From positions 1 through 64,000 of the IMG/VR virus record IMGVR_UViG_3300035670_000132: a stretch of 64,000 bases of DNA; one strand, written 5' to 3'. A program made the position numbers and the translations under genes. This document shows, in pieces, positions 3,122-59,199 of the stretch. Under the pieces are notes generated by a model. The model did not search any database, had not been told where the DNA came from, and saw nothing but the letters and a program-made list of their open reading frames with translations. The DNA comes from a virus. Within the stretch, counting starts at the first letter, position 1. Every line of letters starts with the position of its first letter.

Positions 3122-4942
3122 ATGGCAACACCAACAAATCTAAAAATTGATGGTCTAGATTTCCAGTCTATCAAAGATAATTTCAAAACTTTTCTAAAAG
3201 CTCAAGACAAGTTCAAAGACTACAACTTCGACGCTGCTGGTCTAAATGTATTAGTAGACTTACTTTCATACAACACGTATTACAATTCGTTCTACGTGAA
3301 TATGGTGTCTAATGAAGCATTCTTATCTACAGCGCAGAGAAGAAATTCAATTGTAGCAGCAGCCAAGTCTTTGAACTATGTTCCAAGATCACGCACTTCT
3401 GCTAGAGTAGTCGCAACGTTGACTGTTGAGCCGGTTGGCACTCCAGCTAACGTTCTGATACCGAGATATACTTCGTTTTCGGCCGCTGCGACTGATGGCA
3501 CTGATGTAACTTTTGTGAACTTAGATCCAATCACAGTTTTCTCATCAGATAGCTATGCAGTAACTGGCGCGACTCTCGTCGAAGGAACATACGTCGCAGA
3601 AAGATATACAGTAAATACTGCTGACACAGAACAAAGATTCATCATCAATAATACTGATATTGACACTACTACGCTCAGAGTTAGAGTTCAGAACTCATCT
3701 ACAGATTCTACTATCCGCACATTCAATAGAGCAGATAATTATGTGAATCTAACTTCAGATTCTCTAGTATACTTCATTCAAGAAATAGAAGATGGCTATT
3801 ATGAAGTAACATTTGGCGATGGCACTTTCGGCACATCTCTTCTCGATGGAAACGTAATTCTATTCGACTATCTTTCCTCTAACGGCGCTACAGGTAATGA
3901 TATTACTGGAATGAGTTTCGCAGGATCAATCTCCGACGTCGTTGACATTGGAGCAGTCGTCACAACAGCATCTTACGGCGGTGATGATCGTGAATCTATC
4001 GAACGCATTAGATACAATGCTCCGAAAGCATATGCCGCGCAGAACAGATTGATCACTACTGACGATTATATCTCTCTAGTATTGCAACAACCAAATGTGC
4101 AGTCTGCAATTGCATGGGGCGGCGAAGATAACGATCCTCCATATTACGGGAGAGTCTTCATCGCAATTCAGCCAAAGAATGAAGAAGTTCTTACTGACAC
4201 AGAAAAGTTCAATCTAACTGAGTATATCATAAAGCCAAGAAAAATTTTGACAATGAGTACCGAGATTGTAGATCCAGAATACATCTATTTGATTATAGAT
4301 GCTTCAGTGAAATATGATACTAGTGTAAACGTATTGAATTCTACAAATCTAACTTCATTGATTCTACAAAGAGTGATGGAGTATAAAGACAGCGATCTCG
4401 CACAGTTCTCAAAATACTTTAGATATTCAAAACTGTCAAGAATTATTGACACATCAGATAGATCAATTCTAAGTTCTACTCTGAGAATTCAACTAAGAAA
4501 AGAAATTGAAGTTCAGTTGAATATCAATGCATCTTATGTTATTGATTTTGCTAACCCGATTGATGATATAACTAAAGACAGAGCAGCGAATCATCCTTAC
4601 GCCGCGGGAAATAAAATTTCATCAAATGCGTTCACATATCAGGGATTTTCAAACTGCTTCTTAGAAGAAAACGGCGGTGTAATCAGAATCTATCGTCAAT
4701 CTGGAGCAAATCTTGTCGGCGTAGTTCCTAACATCGGAACTTTAAACTACGATACTGGTCGAATAACCCTAAATTCATTTATTCCAGAATCATTTGCTGA
4801 CGGCGGCACTACACTCAAAGTCACTGCTGTGCCACGTGAGCCCGATATTCTGCCATTGAGAACTCAGATCATTACTATTCGTGAAGAAGACGTAACTGTC
4901 AATCTAATCAATGATAACGCAATCAGTCTAACGAAACGATAA
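3122..4942 (+). CDS. gp6: Baseplate wedge subunit gp6
   Basis: The 606-residue protein (T4 gp6 has 660) starts MATPTNLKIDGLDFQSIKDN. It contains the gp6/baseplate-J-like segment RYNAPKAYAAQNRLITTDDY around residues 298-317, typical of proteins that form the inner baseplate ring. In T4 two copies of gp6 per wedge knit the six wedges together around the hub. It lies between gp25 and gp7, the order seen in cyanophage-like T4 relatives. The stop codon overlaps the gp7 start as TAATG, suggesting coupled translation. Confidence 0.92.
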   Translation: MATPTNLKIDGLDFQSIKDNFKTFLKAQDKFKDYNFDAAGLNVLVDLLSYNTYYNSFYVNMVSNEAFLSTAQRRNSIVAAAKSLNYVPRSRTSARVVATLTVEPVGTPANVLIPRYTSFSAAATDGTDVTFVNLDPITVFSSDSYAVTGATLVEGTYVAERYTVNTADTEQRFIINNTDIDTTTLRVRVQNSSTDSTIRTFNRADNYVNLTSDSLVYFIQEIEDGYYEVTFGDGTFGTSLLDGNVILFDYLSSNGATGNDITGMSFAGSISDVVDIGAVVTTASYGGDDRESIERIRYNAPKAYAAQNRLITTDDYISLVLQQPNVQSAIAWGGEDNDPPYYGRVFIAIQPKNEEVLTDTEKFNLTEYIIKPRKILTMSTEIVDPEYIYLIIDASVKYDTSVNVLNSTNLTSLILQRVMEYKDSDLAQFSKYFRYSKLSRIIDTSDRSILSSTLRIQLRKEIEVQLNINASYVIDFANPIDDITKDRAANHPYAAGNKISSNAFTYQGFSNCFLEENGGVIRIYRQSGANLVGVVPNIGTLNYDTGRITLNSFIPESFADGGTTLKVTAVPREPDILPLRTQIITIREEDVTVNLINDNAISLTKR

Positions 4943-15537: not shown

Positions 15538-15777
15538 ATGCAATCAAGCGTAAAACTGAAAGAAACAAAGAACGGTTTATCTGAAAGAGATTTACACTCA
15601 AAAGCGATACTGAACACGGATAACTCATTACTACTCAAGTATAAAATTCAGAAAAGTAGACAGATGAACGTTCAGAACAATTCGACTGAAATTGAGAGAT
15701 TGAAATCAGAATTTCAATCTCTCAAGAGTGAAATCTCAGAAATCAAACAAATTCTTCTTCAAATAGCAAGCAGGTAA
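15538..15777 (+). CDS. Small coiled-coil protein
   Basis: The 79-residue protein is basic in its first half. Its second half (residues about 47-79, STEIERLKSEFQSLKSEI...) is a clear heptad-type coiled coil. The ATG lies one base after the TAATACC junction behind the DUF4815 gene. It sits between two very large structural genes and could be a fibre adapter, trimerisation partner or assembly chaperone; the sequence supports only the coiled coil. No homologue recognised. Confidence 0.6.
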   Translation: MQSSVKLKETKNGLSERDLHSKAILNTDNSLLLKYKIQKSRQMNVQNNSTEIERLKSEFQSLKSEISEIKQILLQIASR

Positions 15778-27624: not shown

Positions 27625-28833
27625 ATGGGTGTTTTTTCTGGTCCAGAAATAGAAAACGATCAACTAATTCTGTGTGTAGACGCAGCGAATTCAAAAAGCT
27701 GGAGCTATAACGTTCATCCTAAGCCAATTGACATTGGTGCTTGGTGGACCGCATCTAGCAATAGTACAGTAACCAGAGATTTGACATTCACTGCGACGAC
27801 ACAATCGCCAGCGGGTGGTGTTCCTATAAAAATGATAGTTTCTGGTACAGATCCCTATATAACGTCAACGCAAGTTTATCTTGCGCCGGCAGCAGATGGT
27901 CAGACATGGACTATCAGCGTTTATGCCAAATCAAGTGTCGCTACTACAGGCGAGCTTTTTATTTTGGGATTGAATTCTTCCAATACATACGTTGAAGCGC
28001 CATCTGGCACAATAAACATAACTAATAATTGGCAAAGATTCTCTTACACATACACATTCACAAATGGAACTATAGCTGGAATAGCAATCAGACTAGATGG
28101 ACCAAACAGCGGTTTCGGCACAGATGGAGTGACTGCGCCAACAATTTGGTGGGATGGTCTTCAAGTAGAGCGCAACTCTTCAGCAACTGCATTCAATCCA
28201 GTAACTAATGCATCAGGAAACAAAGTTCTTGATGTGAGCCCGAATGACTACACAGCGTCTTTCGTCGGCTCAACATCACACAACAACACTGGAGCAAAAT
28301 CATTCGATACTAATGCAACAGCAGTGACTCAGAACAATAACATTGCTATTCCTACAATCACTTTTGCTGATGCGTCTTCATATTCACTTGATTTTTGGGT
28401 AAAAATTCGCTCTAGCGCTCCGTCAACGTTTCATAGTTTGACTGGAAACAACGCAACAGCGCCATGGGTTATTCTTTACACAAACGACACTACAGGCGCA
28501 AGTTGGTTCATGAGATTCAGAAACGCATCATCAACATATCAAGATTTTTCGAACGTCACTAACTGGAACATCCAATCAAATTGGGCTAATGTTACACTCA
28601 CAATTTCAAATTCTAGAGTTTGTAGTTTCTATTTGAATGGTATCTTTAGACAATCAATAACACTTGCAACTTCTGCTTTAGATGCGGTCACTATTGGTGG
28701 TGGATATTCTTCGGCAGGAAACTACTATCCGTTCCAGGGCAGCATAGGTCTCGCTAAGTTCTACACACAGACGCTGACTGCTGACGAAGTGAGAAAACAT
28801 TTCACTGCTAATCGTTCTAGATTTTCAGTTTGA
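27625..28833 (+). CDS. LamG-type receptor-binding-like protein, copy 6
   Basis: This is the most divergent of the six copies, with 402 residues. It starts MGVFSGPEIENDQLILCVDA, has a clear jelly-roll carbohydrate-binding-like region (WTISVYAKSSVATTGELFIL ... WQRFSYTYTF ... WWDGLQVERNSSATAF) and a LamG region (YSLDFWVKIRS ... NWANVTLTISNSRVCSFYLN). It ends TQTLTADEVRKHFTANRSRF, the degenerate form of the family tail. AAGGGA at 27613-27618 is the likely ribosome site. A late promoter-like box overlaps its stop codon. Confidence 0.75.
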   Translation: MGVFSGPEIENDQLILCVDAANSKSWSYNVHPKPIDIGAWWTASSNSTVTRDLTFTATTQSPAGGVPIKMIVSGTDPYITSTQVYLAPAADGQTWTISVYAKSSVATTGELFILGLNSSNTYVEAPSGTINITNNWQRFSYTYTFTNGTIAGIAIRLDGPNSGFGTDGVTAPTIWWDGLQVERNSSATAFNPVTNASGNKVLDVSPNDYTASFVGSTSHNNTGAKSFDTNATAVTQNNNIAIPTITFADASSYSLDFWVKIRSSAPSTFHSLTGNNATAPWVILYTNDTTGASWFMRFRNASSTYQDFSNVTNWNIQSNWANVTLTISNSRVCSFYLNGIFRQSITLATSALDAVTIGGGYSSAGNYYPFQGSIGLAKFYTQTLTADEVRKHFTANRSRFSV

Positions 28834-28839
28834 TAAATA
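28832..28839 (+). promoter_or_regulatory. Late promoter-like box upstream of the S74 fibre gene
   Basis: GATAAATA is a one-base variant of TATAAATA. The predicted start near 28845 gives a leader of about 33 bases with AAAGGA. A 7-bp repeat (TTCAGTT at 28824-28830, AACTGAA at 28866-28872) brackets the box and overlaps the edge of the ribosome site, a weaker version of the arrangement before gp13. Confidence 0.5.
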
Positions 28840-28877: not shown

Positions 28878-30254
28878 ATGGCATACACAGACAAGAATCT
28901 AGTTATTACGCCTAACGTAGGCTCTGCGGGTGAAGATCCAACAATCACATTCAGTGGCGCCGATAGCACTCTCGGCGCACAATCACTTCAAGCGAGAATC
29001 TATCCAACATCAAACGGAACACTCTCATTCGAAGGCTCGGCTGGTCAGTTATTCAGCATAACAAACAGTTTGACTGGCACGATTTACTCAGTCAACGATG
29101 TATCTGGAATTCCAAGCATTGAAGTCTTCGACACAGGCGTAATTCGTCTCGCTCAGTACAGTGGAAGAGTTCTCATCGGTAATATCTCCGATAACGGCGT
29201 CGATACTCTTCAATTTGATCAAAATAGTAGTATACTATTTCAAAACATCAACGTAGCTAGTCAATTGACATCAAGTGTATCGACGGGAACTGCACCGTTC
29301 GTTGTCACATCAACTACTGCTGTCACTAACTTGAATGCAGACTTGGTTGATGGAATTCAAGGAGCATCTCTGCTAAGAAGTGACGCTTCTGATACATATT
29401 CTGGAGGTATTTTAACTGTATCAAATGACGCTGGAATAGACGTAACAAATACAGGACAAATCAACGGACTACAAATATATCAGCCCACCGTCAACGCTGA
29501 CGCTTTAATGTCTTTTCATATCTCTGGCGATTACGCAGTACATTTCGGCTTAGACGGAGAAACTAATGATCTAACAGTTGGCGGCTGGTCAAAAGGTGCT
29601 AACAAGTACAGAGTTTGGCACGCTGGAAATGATGGAGCATCTTCTGGTCTAGACGCTGACTTACTAGATGGTCAACATGGTTCATATTATACAACAGCGG
29701 GAAATCTTTCTGGAACAATACCTTCAGCGGTATTAGGCAATTCTACATTATACGTAGGAACTACAGCAATTGCACTCAATAGAAGTTCAGCTTCTCTATC
29801 TCTCACTGGAGTTAATATAGATGGATCTGCTGGCACATTTACTAGCACATCACAGAACTCAAGATTCAATTCTATAGGAGTTAATACTGCTGCTTCAGGA
29901 ACAGCAGGTGAAATTAGAGCTACAAATAACATCACAGCATATTTTTCTTCTGATAGAAAATTTAAAGAAAACGTTAAAGACGTTACAGATGCGACTGAGA
30001 TTGTTTCTGCAATAGGAGCAAAAACATTTGATTGGACTGATAGTTATATACAAGAACATGGAGGCGCTGACGGATATTTTGTTACAAAAAATGATTTTGG
30101 TGTAATTGCTCAAGATGTACAAGCAGTATTTCCGATGGCAGTAAGAACTCGCGAAGACGGATCACTTGCAGTTGATTACGGAAAACTAGCAATTTTAGCA
30201 TTCGCTGCAATTAAGGAACTTGCTGAAAGAATTAAAAAATTGGAAAATAAATAA
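28878..30254 (+). CDS. Tail fibre with S74 self-cleaving chaperone
   Basis: The protein has 458 residues. The N-terminal 350 are beta-rich fibre sequence that shares modules with the 1554-residue fibre (TAPFVVTSTTAVTNLNADL, LLDGQHGSYY). The C-terminal 100 residues are a peptidase S74 intramolecular chaperone: SSDRKFKENV, followed by FGVIAQDVQAVFP and LAVDYGKLAILAFAAIKELA, ending in a coiled coil. By analogy with phage K1F endosialidase, the Ser-Lys dyad is Ser358/Lys363 and cleavage before Ser358 releases the chaperone after trimer folding. Codon use shifts to AT-rich, TTA-type leucines from about 29700, so the 3' part may be imported. Confidence 0.88.
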   Translation: MAYTDKNLVITPNVGSAGEDPTITFSGADSTLGAQSLQARIYPTSNGTLSFEGSAGQLFSITNSLTGTIYSVNDVSGIPSIEVFDTGVIRLAQYSGRVLIGNISDNGVDTLQFDQNSSILFQNINVASQLTSSVSTGTAPFVVTSTTAVTNLNADLVDGIQGASLLRSDASDTYSGGILTVSNDAGIDVTNTGQINGLQIYQPTVNADALMSFHISGDYAVHFGLDGETNDLTVGGWSKGANKYRVWHAGNDGASSGLDADLLDGQHGSYYTTAGNLSGTIPSAVLGNSTLYVGTTAIALNRSSASLSLTGVNIDGSAGTFTSTSQNSRFNSIGVNTAASGTAGEIRATNNITAYFSSDRKFKENVKDVTDATEIVSAIGAKTFDWTDSYIQEHGGADGYFVTKNDFGVIAQDVQAVFPMAVRTREDGSLAVDYGKLAILAFAAIKELAERIKKLENK

Positions 30255-32926: not shown

Positions 32927-33859
32927 ATGAAACAACTTAACAAAATAAATATAGATTTAAATTTACAACCATCACCAAAAGACGCAAGAGACTTCTTAGC
33001 GTCTGTAAACTATAGTGACAAAGAGTTTCTTCCTGCGCATGTTGACTTGTTGCCAGACGTTGAAGAAGTAGAGAATCAGTATCAGACTGGTTCATGCACA
33101 GCAAACGCAGCAGCAACAGCACTTGAAATCACATATAAACGCGCAGGAAAGAGCAAAGACTTCTCTAGACTCTACAATTATTGGTACTCTAGAGCTATCG
33201 GAAACATCTCTGGCGACAAAGGCGCTTATCCTCGCGATGTATGCAAAGCTCTAAACAAGCATGGTATTTGCTTAGAGTCTACTTGGGAATTCGACATCGA
33301 GAAAAATCTGAACGTAGAGCCTTCTATAGATGCGCAAGAGGAAGCAAAACAGTATCCTGTGCATGAGTATGCGAGACTAGATGATGACAGAGATATCGTT
33401 GTTGAAATCAAAAAAGCTGTAGCTGCTGGTATTCCAGTGATGACATCGATCAAAGTGTCTAAAGGATTCAATTCTCTCGGATTGAACTGGAAAGAACACG
33501 ATTGGGATCCAGAGCAAGAGCCAATTGGAGCGCATCAAGTCGTCATTATCGGCTACGATGACAAAGCTCAAAGATTTCTAGCACAAAACTCATGGGGAAA
33601 TCGATGGGCAGACGGCGGATTCTTTGGCATTCCATACACTAGAATAGGAACTGACTACTACGTCAAATCGACATCTTCATATGAGTATTGGATTTTGACT
33701 AAACTTGATGTTCCTTACGTTGACGCTGATGGAACAGAGACAGATCCATACAACATTATAGAAATTGAACGCAGCAAGAGTGAGCAGACAAAGAATTTAC
33801 TCTTCGCTGTTATTTTTGGAAGCATTTTCGCATTCATTATGATGATGTTGACTCGATAG
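32927..33859 (+). CDS. Papain-like (C1) cysteine protease with C-terminal membrane segment
   Basis: The 310-residue protein has the full C1-type catalytic set: Gln51 and Cys57 (QYQTGSCTANA, with the papain Gln-to-Cys spacing), His203 (GAHQVVIIGYDD) and Asn221 (QNSWGNRWADGGFFGIPY). Family knowledge predicts a peptidase. Residues about 290-308 (LLFAVIFGSIFAFIMMMLT) form a hydrophobic segment, so the enzyme may be tail-anchored. There is no signal peptide; the N-terminus (MKQLNKINIDLNLQPSPKDA) may be a propeptide or adapter. It closes the fibre region and its end lies beside the hairpin controlling gp13. Possible roles are fibre processing, host-surface digestion or a role at the host membrane; none is shown. 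Confidence 0.85.
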   Translation: MKQLNKINIDLNLQPSPKDARDFLASVNYSDKEFLPAHVDLLPDVEEVENQYQTGSCTANAAATALEITYKRAGKSKDFSRLYNYWYSRAIGNISGDKGAYPRDVCKALNKHGICLESTWEFDIEKNLNVEPSIDAQEEAKQYPVHEYARLDDDRDIVVEIKKAVAAGIPVMTSIKVSKGFNSLGLNWKEHDWDPEQEPIGAHQVVIIGYDDKAQRFLAQNSWGNRWADGGFFGIPYTRIGTDYYVKSTSSYEYWILTKLDVPYVDADGTETDPYNIIEIERSKSEQTKNLLFAVIFGSIFAFIMMMLTR

Positions 33860-33866
33860 AAAACTG

Positions 33867-33912
33867 GAAGATTCCTTGTTGTATAAATAGAGAAAAACAA
33901 CAAGGAATCTTC
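33867..33912 (+). promoter_or_regulatory. Perfect 16-bp inverted repeat sequestering the gp13 ribosome site
   Basis: The arms are 33867-33882 and 33897-33912, perfectly complementary over 16 bp with a 14-base loop. The right arm contains the gp13 Shine-Dalgarno AAGGAA (33902-33907). The loop holds the late promoter box. RNA reading through from upstream would fold and hide the site; RNA begun at the late promoter (about 33895) lacks the left arm and would be open. T4 gene e is known to use this design. Confidence 0.8.
33882..33889 (+). promoter_or_regulatory. T4-type late promoter box upstream of gp13
   Basis: A perfect TATAAATA lies within the loop region of the 16-bp inverted repeat. The predicted start near 33895 gives a leader of about 20 bases that keeps AAGGAA but not the left arm of the hairpin. 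Confidence 0.8.
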
Positions 33913-33914
33913 AC

Positions 33915-34661
33915 ATGGCAAGAATCACAACCCGCGAAGAGTTCAAGCAACACATTCTTAGAAATCTCGGTGCTCCGCTACTAGAAATCAACGTATCTGA
34001 TGATCAGATAGATGATGCTGTAGATGAATCGCTGCAATACTACTACGATTATCACTTTGATGGCACAGAAAAAGTCTACTTAGCACATCAAGTGACTGAG
34101 CAAGATATCGCGAATAGATATCTCACGATTCCAGAAAATATGATCAGTGTCATCAACATCTTTGACATTGGCACTAGCATCTCATCGTCTAACAATCTAT
34201 TTAACATTAGATATCAACTTGCATTGAATGACTTGTTTGCATTTAATACTGGACCATTTGCTTCGTATTACATGACGCTACAGAACGTAGCACTTGCTGA
34301 AGAGCTATTTGTTGGTAAGCAAGCAATTAGATTCAATCGTCACACAAACAAGCTCTACATTGATATGGCATGGAATGAAAAAACTCCTGCTGGCGATTAC
34401 ATCATTGTTGAAGGCTATCAAATTGTAGATCCAGAAACTTATCCAGACGTATGGGAAGATCGCTGGCTCAAGCGCTATGCGACAGCTATGCTGAAACAGC
34501 AATGGGGAACTAATCTCAAGAAGTTCGAGGGCATCGCTATGCCAGGCGGTGTCACATTCAACGGACAGAAAATATATGACGAAGCTGCTGCTGAACTTGA
34601 AAAGTTGGAAGCCGAGATGATTAGCAGTTACAGTCTTCCAGTTTCTGATATGATGGGATAA
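33915..34661 (+). CDS. gp13: Neck protein gp13
   Basis: The 248-residue protein begins MARITTREEFKQHILRNLGA followed by PLLEINVSDDQIDDAVDESL, the conserved start of T4-like and cyanophage gp13 head-completion proteins. In T4, gp13 and gp14 form the neck that closes the filled head and docks the tail. It is followed by gp14 and gp15 in the canonical order. Translation is probably governed by the hairpin and late promoter upstream. The stop codon is separated from the gp14 GTG by two bases. Confidence 0.92.
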   Translation: MARITTREEFKQHILRNLGAPLLEINVSDDQIDDAVDESLQYYYDYHFDGTEKVYLAHQVTEQDIANRYLTIPENMISVINIFDIGTSISSSNNLFNIRYQLALNDLFAFNTGPFASYYMTLQNVALAEELFVGKQAIRFNRHTNKLYIDMAWNEKTPAGDYIIVEGYQIVDPETYPDVWEDRWLKRYATAMLKQQWGTNLKKFEGIAMPGGVTFNGQKIYDEAAAELEKLEAEMISSYSLPVSDMMG

Positions 34662-40337: not shown

Positions 40338-40871
40338 ATGTCATTTAGCGTAAACGATCTAAGAACGGCAATGGGTTTGGGCGTTCGTCCAAATCTATTC
40401 AGAGTCACATTTGCGACTGGTTTTGTGGGAGCACAGAACAGCCAAGCATCAGTTTTAGTGAAGTCGGCAGCACTACCAGGAGACACAATCGGAATGATTG
40501 AAGTTCCACACATGGGTGGTCGCAGACTAAAAGTTGCTGGTGATCGCACATTTGCTGACTGGACAATGACTGTTCTAAACGATAAAGACTATACTGTGAG
40601 AAAAGCACTAGAAACTTATCAAAATAAGTTTGTTGACATTGACTACACAAAGACAACGGTTGGAACAAGAATTGCTAACGGTGCTCCAGCAGCATTGACA
40701 GTCATTACAGTTGAGCAGCTAGACACAAACGGAAGTGCAACACTAAGAACTTATAAGTTGAATAACTGTTTCGTAACCGAAATTTCAGCAATTGATCTTT
40801 CATACGATAGCAGCGACGCAATTGAAGAGTACACAGTGAACTGGACTTATGATTACTTCACAGTATCTTAA
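40338..40871 (+). CDS. gp19: Tail tube protein gp19, copy 1
   Basis: The 177-residue protein has the gp19 pattern: VRPNLFRVTF, IGMIEVPHMGGRRLKVAGDR, TFADWTMTVLNDKDY and a C-terminal WTYDYFTVS. T4 gp19 (163 residues) stacks in hexameric rings to make the rigid tube. AAAGGAG precedes the ATG. A second related gene follows at 40902. This copy has the better spacing after gp18 but the sequence alone does not say which is the main tube subunit. Confidence 0.92.
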   Translation: MSFSVNDLRTAMGLGVRPNLFRVTFATGFVGAQNSQASVLVKSAALPGDTIGMIEVPHMGGRRLKVAGDRTFADWTMTVLNDKDYTVRKALETYQNKFVDIDYTKTTVGTRIANGAPAALTVITVEQLDTNGSATLRTYKLNNCFVTEISAIDLSYDSSDAIEEYTVNWTYDYFTVS

Positions 40872-40874
40872 TAC

Positions 40875-40882
40875 TATAAATA
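40875..40882 (+). promoter_or_regulatory. T4-type late promoter box between the two tube genes
   Basis: A perfect TATAAATA with predicted start near 40888 means the RNA would begin almost at the ribosome site AAGGAGG (40889-40895). This gives the second tube gene its own late transcript. Confidence 0.78.
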
Positions 40883-40901
40883 ATACATAAGGAGGTTCAA
40901 A

Positions 40902-41438
40902 ATGGCTATCTCAACAATTACAGCAATCACTTCTCAACTAAAGTCTGGTGCGCGCCCAAATCTATTTAATGTTGCAGTGACAGCTCCGGGTGGCGCAACT
41001 TCAACAACATTGCCAACAAATGCTAGTTTGCTCTGCAAAGCAGGTCAAGCTCCAGCATACACAATTGGCATGATTGAAGTTCCATTCAGAGGAAGAAGAA
41101 TCAAGCTACCGGGTGATCGCACATTCGCAGAATGGACTGCGACATTCATCGTCGATGAAGGATACAAAGTAAGAAAATACTTTGAAGAGTGGGCAAACTT
41201 TGTCAAAGCAAGAGACTTCACTTCTGGCGCAAACAGAACAGTCGCTGGAAACAACGTTGGCTACTACGGCACTATTGACGTCATTCAACTAAGTGACGAC
41301 AATAAAGCAGTGAGAACATATTCTTTGAAAGATGTGTTCCCAACAGACGTAGCTCAGATTGATGTCTCTTATGACACGACTGATGCTATCATGGAATTCA
41401 GTGTCACTTTCCAGTATCACTACTTCACAGTAAAGTAA
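40902..41438 (+). CDS. gp19: Tail tube protein gp19, copy 2
   Basis: The 178-residue protein is clearly paralogous to the upstream gene: ARPNLFNVAV, IGMIEVPFRGRRIKLPGDRT, FAEWTATFIVDEGYKVRKYF and a closing FQYHYFTVK. Differences cluster in the first loop (residues about 25-45), where this copy has a longer TSTTLPTNASLLCK segment. It has its own late promoter and a full-consensus ribosome site, so it may be the more strongly expressed copy. It could alternatively be a specialised ring such as the tube initiator (T4 gp54 is gp19-related). An intrinsic terminator follows. Confidence 0.9.
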   Translation: MAISTITAITSQLKSGARPNLFNVAVTAPGGATSTTLPTNASLLCKAGQAPAYTIGMIEVPFRGRRIKLPGDRTFAEWTATFIVDEGYKVRKYFEEWANFVKARDFTSGANRTVAGNNVGYYGTIDVIQLSDDNKAVRTYSLKDVFPTDVAQIDVSYDTTDAIMEFSVTFQYHYFTVK

Positions 41439-58602: not shown

Positions 58603-59199
58603 ATGCCAGAATTAAAAGCAAAATCAAACCACTACGTAGACAATCAGACATTCCTAGCTCAGATGACTGAGTATAGAAAGACTGTCATTGAAGCAAAGGA
58701 AAAAGGCGTCGAGAAGCCTAGAGTTCCGAACTATATTGGTTTGTGTCTTTTCAAGATCGCAACACACTTGGCAAGAAAGCCCAACTTCGCAAACTACTCA
58801 TTCAAAGAGGACATGATCTCTGACGGAGTAGAAAACTGTCTCATGTATATTGACAACTTCAATCCAGAGCGATCAACGAATCCGTTTGCATATTTTACGC
58901 AGATCATCTACTATGCGTTCCTACGGCGCATTCAGAAAGAAAAAAAGCAGATGTATGTGAAGTACAAATCGATGGAAAACGAGATCGTCACAACATTGAC
59001 TGACTCAAACGCAGATGATATAATCACACAGAATATCAACGGAATGATTCACGATGCATATGCTGAAGAGTTCATCCGTGATTTCATTGAAGCGTTTGAA
59101 ACGAATGAACGTAAGAAGTCTTCTGGTAAGAAGAAAAAGGTTGGTCTAATCAAATTCATGGAGGATGATGATGCAACACCAATTCCAGCAGAAAGCTGA
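58603..59199 (+). CDS. gp55: Late-transcription sigma factor gp55
   Basis: The 198-residue protein (T4 gp55: 185) has the gp55 core: YIGLCLFKIATHLARKPNFA, EDMISDGVENCLMYIDNFNP, NPFAYFTQIIYYAFLRRIQK followed by EKKQMYVKY, a reduced sigma-70 region 2. With gp33 and gp45 it directs host polymerase to TATAAATA promoters; about ten such boxes occur in this window. A lysine-rich stretch (KKSSGKKKKVG) lies near the C-terminus. Its 3' end overlaps the next small gene. Confidence 0.94.
   Translation: MPELKAKSNHYVDNQTFLAQMTEYRKTVIEAKEKGVEKPRVPNYIGLCLFKIATHLARKPNFANYSFKEDMISDGVENCLMYIDNFNPERSTNPFAYFTQIIYYAFLRRIQKEKKQMYVKYKSMENEIVTTLTDSNADDIITQNINGMIHDAYAEEFIRDFIEAFETNERKKSSGKKKKVGLIKFMEDDDATPIPAES

Follow-up and report, generated by a model that had tools for sequence, protein, structure and literature searches.

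In phage T4, the leader of gene e, like those of genes 49, soc and 26, which have the same layout, has its late promoter embedded in the sequence that provides the 5' strand of a helix hiding the ribosome-binding site (RBS). As a result, the long RNA is blocked and the late RNA is free, and the structure lowers the synthesis of e around 100-fold (PMC3014915). The leaders of I-TevI, I-TevII, I-TevIII, segB and Aeh1 mobE also combine a hairpin with a late promoter, and only the late-initiated RNA is translated (PMC2988022). Promoter-in-loop RBS hairpins have been described for a few T4 genes, chiefly those for lysis and for homing endonucleases, and have been read as timers. Bacterial transposons with sigma-70 promoters are said to use a related logic. 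Davis, Simons and Kleckner reportedly described in 1985 that IS10/Tn10 and IS50/Tn5 are protected from outside transcription, as the read-through RNA is said to fold over the transposase start and the RNA from the element's own promoter to be devoid of the 5' arm.

A freshwater-type phage related to T4 carries, upstream of gene 13 (gp13) and hence at its neck operon, a hairpin that is real and under selection and that is of the same kind as those of T4 gene e and I-TevI. The stretch of DNA that was analysed (the window) represents the first 64,000 nt of a 78.5-kb virus record, and the features that matter for the comparison are the following.

28832..28839, + strand: GATAAATA, from which the upstream operon is likely transcribed late; the fibre gene at 28878 begins 46 nt further on
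32927..33859, + strand: papain-like C1 peptidase (PF00112), 310 aa, co-directional with gp13, stop codon 7 nt before the hairpin
33867..33882, + strand: 5' hairpin arm GAAGATTCCTTGTTGT, upstream of the predicted late start and thus missing from the predicted late RNA
33882..33889, + strand: late promoter box of the T4 type, TATAAATA; only its first base, which is the last of the left arm, is outside the loop
33895, + strand: predicted late transcription start, from T4 spacing (box at -13 to -6), giving a 20-nt leader to the gp13 ATG
33897..33912, + strand: 3' hairpin arm ACAACAAGGAATCTTC
33902..33907, + strand: gp13 Shine-Dalgarno (SD) AAGGAA, entirely within the 3' arm, with the gp13 ATG 7 nt on
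33915..34661, + strand: gp13 neck protein/head-tail adaptor, 248 aa (phrog_211, head-tail adaptor Ad2), first of the 13-14-15-16-17 block
40837..40899, + strand: second hairpin, weaker and imperfect, with arms 40837-40851 and 40886-40899 around TATAAATA at 40875-40882
58615..59166, + strand: late sigma factor gp55 homologue (phrog_234, E 1.3e-63)
71370-72026: gp45 homologue, on the same contig

The initial sequence-only reading had named the block a neck-packaging operon, and the names match, as gp13 is followed in order by a gp14-like neck protein, a gp15-like sheath stabiliser and the small and large terminase subunits. In T4, gp13 is an essential structural gene. The genes upstream of gp13 in the window are of the fibre type, and the last gene of the fibre operon encodes the papain-like peptidase, which has a hydrophobic C-terminal segment. 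The end of the peptidase gene is separated from the gp13 ATG by 55 nt, with no terminator-like site called in between. Since homologues of gp55 and gp45 are both present on the contig, a late system of the T4 type is expected; a late box NATAAATA has been reported for the T4-like cyanophage S-PM2 (PMC2984593). As the T4 late box begins at -13 (PMC2988020), the +1 is predicted at 33895, in the loop and two bases before the 3' arm.

Between 33857 and 33917, the peptidase stop TAG (33857-33859) is followed by 7 nt, GAAGATTCCTTGTTGT, the 14-nt spacer ATAAATAGAGAAAA, ACAACAAGGAATCTTC, the dinucleotide AC and the gp13 ATG at 33915, with the box 33 nt before the ATG. The claim of a perfect 16-bp repeat around the box, with its right arm over AAGGAA, was thus borne out in its exact coordinates and in the 100% complementarity of the arms. 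The repeat is the longest perfect short-loop inverted repeat in the whole 64-kb window, and its box is the only one on the + strand of the window to lie within a long perfect stem. In 200 dinucleotide shuffles of the whole window, the longest stem ranged from 8 to 14 bp and never reached 16 bp, and the fold of 33860-33920 (-23.5 kcal/mol, z -7.5) was not equalled by any shuffle. No intrinsic terminator was called at 33867-33912, where the end of the stem is followed by ACATGG without a U-run. A 15-bp perfect hairpin at 15692-15725 was set aside, as it lies within a small coding frame (15538-15777) and has neither a nearby box nor a U-run.

The effect expected from the hairpin was estimated as the folding energy required to open the region from the SD to the AUG, comparing RNA with both arms to RNA begun at 33895. 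For gp13, the predicted cost falls from 18.4 kcal/mol when the RNA comes from upstream to 2.5 in late RNA. The resulting difference of 15.9 exceeds the 14.7 obtained for T4 gene e, the case to which the locus had been likened at the outset, and supports both that comparison and the proposed logic of sequestration. The same script gave 12.9, 12.8 and 12.5 kcal/mol for I-TevI, I-TevII and 49, respectively, and 10.7, 10.4 and 9.7 for segB, 26 and 51, so that the value of the window is similar in size to those of e, 49 and 26. Other T4 late genes mostly range from 0 to 5 kcal/mol, and soc, although a documented case, reaches only 3.6. Genes 26 and 51 of T4 (L377, 17929 and 17980) have divergent late promoters that both score as RBS-occluding, and the two scores arise from one common stretch of sequence between the genes. 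Among the sites with TATAAATA, an SD and an ATG, gp13 has the top value of its own contig in six of the eight contigs surveyed. The shuffle-controlled occlusion z-score of the window gp13 varies with the shuffles (6.7 in one run, 5.2 in another). The second hairpin of the window has the same layout and covers AAGGAGG ahead of a gp19-like gene (start at 40902), with an opening-cost difference of 7.1 kcal/mol (z 4.3). The window contains two gp19-like genes in tandem, at 40338 and 40902.

By sequence criteria, the gp13 leader shares with the T4 e/I-TevI-type leaders the late box, an SD predicted to be hidden and a late RNA predicted to be open, and on these grounds belongs with the T4 late-promoter/RBS-hairpin leaders. 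Differently from T4 e, the guarded gene is a neck adaptor heading an operon of virion genes. The two leaders also have arms of unrelated sequence, and RNA arriving from upstream is here probably late rather than early. The leaders of homing endonuclease genes likewise join a hairpin to a late promoter, as do GIY-YIG genes found beside gp13 in relatives, but the known leaders belong to selfish genes inserted inside early/middle transcripts. IS10 and IS50 resemble the gp13 element in the logic of insulation, with no common descent implied. At the T4 wac-13 junction (L184, 7593-7625), a strong hairpin, GGGGCCGCAAGGCCCC, similarly lies directly before the gene 13 RBS; however, the gap contains no TATAAATA and the SD is outside the stem.

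The reading that we favour, with a probability of about 0.72, is that the element combines a late promoter with an RNA insulator acting in cis, which would free gp13 translation from the upstream operon. Read-through RNA from the fibre and peptidase genes would carry both arms and form the 16-bp stem, so that the gp13 SD would be hidden and gp13 hardly started from such RNA. A gp55-type polymerase initiating at TATAAATA would instead produce an RNA whose 5' end is in the loop, some 2 nt short of the 3' arm, and this late RNA, devoid of the 5' arm, would leave gp13 freely translated. Translation of the neck gene would thereby be tied to its own late promoter and uncoupled from the upstream operon. 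As the whole hairpin is confined to the untranslated gap, a ribosome ending the upstream gene would probably disturb only its base. The hiding of the RBS and its late release are well supported as a predicted mechanism; as to what the device is for, insulation would account for it more than timing.

Relatives were then compared by architecture, because searches for the element itself were uninformative: DNA similarity search with the element returned chance matches only, and scanning viral contigs for exact 20-mers retrieved a near-duplicate record only. Loci of gp13 were gathered from IMG/VR with five queries, and 152 distinct sites with a NATAAATA box before gp13 were kept, corresponding to 109 clusters at 75% identity. 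By context, 73 clusters have a co-directional upstream gene without a terminator, 14 a terminator in between and 21 a divergent gene, while 3 are unclear; the members of two of the 109 are spread over more than one class. The context classes are not distinguished by raw duplex energy when composition is left uncontrolled, as SD-rich and T-rich flanks pair by composition, so that shuffle-controlled scores, which separate them, were used. Excess RBS occlusion, defined as that due to the part of the RNA removed by late initiation (p <= 0.05, shuffle-controlled), was found in 24/73 co-directional clusters without a terminator, none of the 14 with a terminator and 1/21 divergent ones (Fisher p 4e-4). 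In parallel, the occlusion z-scores differ between context classes (Mann-Whitney p 4e-5 and 1e-3), and opening-cost differences of at least 10 kcal/mol are reached in nine of the 73 co-directional clusters and in none of the other classes.

Pairing between arms that belong together shows the same distribution. When arms were swapped between sites of the co-directional class, the mean moved from -7.23 for own partners to -5.24 (z -8.4; 0/5000 permutations as good), and own partners paired no better than swapped ones in the remaining classes (z -0.9 and 0.0). An unconstrained stem scan of the 150 nt before gp13 pointed to the same position: in the co-directional class, the best strong stem (at least 9 bp) straddles the predicted start in 10 of the 17 sites having one, the loop usually beginning at -15 to -12 and the 3' arm at 0 to +6 relative to that start, while in the terminator class strong stems are located upstream in 12/12 sites. 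The stem sequences are unrelated, as exemplified by GAAGATTCCTTGTTGT in the window, AGAATTTCCTCCA in L004-L010, CTTCCCCTTATAAAT in L046/L142/L145, ATCTCCTTTTT in L063 and GAGTTCCCTTTG in L213, and G-U pairs, which RNA pairing allows, are present in the stems of L141, L063, L064, L213, L196 and L273. Thus, the conservation in relatives that had been proposed as a check was found in the form of changing sequences with the pairing kept. Related phages appear, on this evidence, to have arrived at the device several times over, each with its own sequence, or to use a terminator instead. In a clade whose gp13 sequences are almost identical, gp13 keeps the cassette ATACTTCCCCTTATAAATAG...GGGGAAG and all the sequence upstream is unrelated, which places the element at the edge of a region in which modules are exchanged; in L041, a sister in that clade, a terminator is found where the 5' arm would be.

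Two further arrangements were observed around gp13. In L195, a homing endonuclease gene (phrog_314, 3872-4567) is inserted right after gp13, and homing endonuclease genes with GIY-YIG-like starts are inserted at the same place in L068, L201, L207, L208, L213 and L216; these genes have their own TATAAATA each, and most have a short RBS hairpin (TATAAATACTCC...GGAGT). A different layout precedes gp13 in L318, L271 and L322, where the 5' arm occupies the stretch from the late box to about +5 and its partner is the start codon (AGCCATG...CATGGCT), with the SD in the loop, so that late initiation would strip just part of the 5' arm.

The distribution of the device is uneven. No significant hairpin is present in 49 of the 73 co-directional clusters, which indicates that such a site can do without the device, and chance may well account for the weak hairpins of individual relatives. 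Mapped on a tree of gp13, the hairpin label requires 17 changes and has therefore been gained or lost many times. After correction for kinship, the association with context keeps its direction: among pairs that differ in context, the hairpin changes as expected in about 3.4 on average and the opposite way in 0.0, although the informative pairs are too few for significance (median p 0.25, or 0.06 with looser cut-offs). Among the cultured relatives sampled (phiM12, phiN3, Cr30, Mosig, pf16, RHph_I1_18, Melnitz-3, Syn19, Smp14, T4 and DLP6), no perfect hairpin of the gp13 layout was present at the gp13 junction; gp13 often starts 0-40 nt from the previous gene in these phages, and most junctions are short or overlapping.

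These data also bear on what else the hairpin might be. That chance or local composition near the promoter produced it has a negligible probability, even though around two thirds of the co-directional sites carry no significant hairpin, given the shuffles, the local fold and the arm-swap score; for the window hairpin itself, a chance origin is already refuted. A terminator, or a 3'-end or RNase III processing site of the fibre operon that overlaps the gp13 promoter by chance, would explain why the hairpin comes after the last upstream stop codon and why intrinsic terminators replace it in relatives. This explanation is nonetheless improbable, as none of the strong hairpins has a U-run after its 3' arm and a terminator-like site was not called here, the loop coincides with the promoter and start while the 3' arm is the SD, and the excess of own-arm pairing is limited to the class without terminators; the reading as an intrinsic terminator in particular was rejected for want of a U-run. 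Bracketing of the promoter box by a perfect palindrome could also reflect regulation of the late promoter at the DNA level, by a dimeric operator or a cruciform. We consider this very improbable, since the arms at the same locus differ wholly in sequence between phages, on which ground a conserved operator was rejected, G-U pairs in several stems break the symmetry of the DNA, and the RBS is always within one arm.

A timing switch as in T4 gene e, with an early/middle upstream operon and the neck protein held until gp55-dependent transcription, accepts the hairpin and differs in its purpose. The documented T4 cases are late genes on early/middle polycistrons (PMC2988022), and the gene upstream of the hairpin encodes non-virion proteins in L004 (nucleotide-kinase-like) and L063 (2OG-Fe(II) oxygenase). 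In the window, however, the upstream genes are of the fibre type and preceded by GATAAATA, which makes the read-through RNA probably late too; the upstream gene of L142 also encodes a structural-type protein, and the terminator that serves as the alternative stops all upstream RNA, early or not. Such a switch is thus unlikely. The sequence-only reading had proposed that neck proteins could be delayed until gp55-dependent transcription, which is not supported, as the upstream fibre operon has a likely late promoter of its own. The pattern of hairpin, terminator and divergent contexts fits protection from upstream RNA in general, with early RNA not singled out. Insulation is favoured because hairpin and terminator interchange and no excess pairing is found behind divergent genes. 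In relatives, a terminator placed directly ahead of the promoter would do the same job, unless there is no co-directional gene upstream at all.

A broader version of the insulator reading, to which we give slightly less than even odds, is that the gp13 junction holds a recurrent, convergently rebuilt insulator that acts late-on-late and is not an early/late timer. Each time a new co-directional module lands upstream, selection would restore either a terminator or an RBS-hiding promoter-loop hairpin.

Collectively, these data would extend the late-promoter/RBS-hairpin leaders to the neck operon in many T4-like phages that form a large environmental group. Here, the device is present at the start of a virion operon and recurs with unrelated sequences where read-through RNA is expected. 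The element may also represent a compact ready-made part, with a promoter and a translational insulator in 50 bp, and it raises a testable general question, namely how a conserved expression block is kept independent while adjacent genes are exchanged. If the insulator is indeed recurrent, the conserved virion core would be expressed independently of exchangeable fibre or accessory modules.
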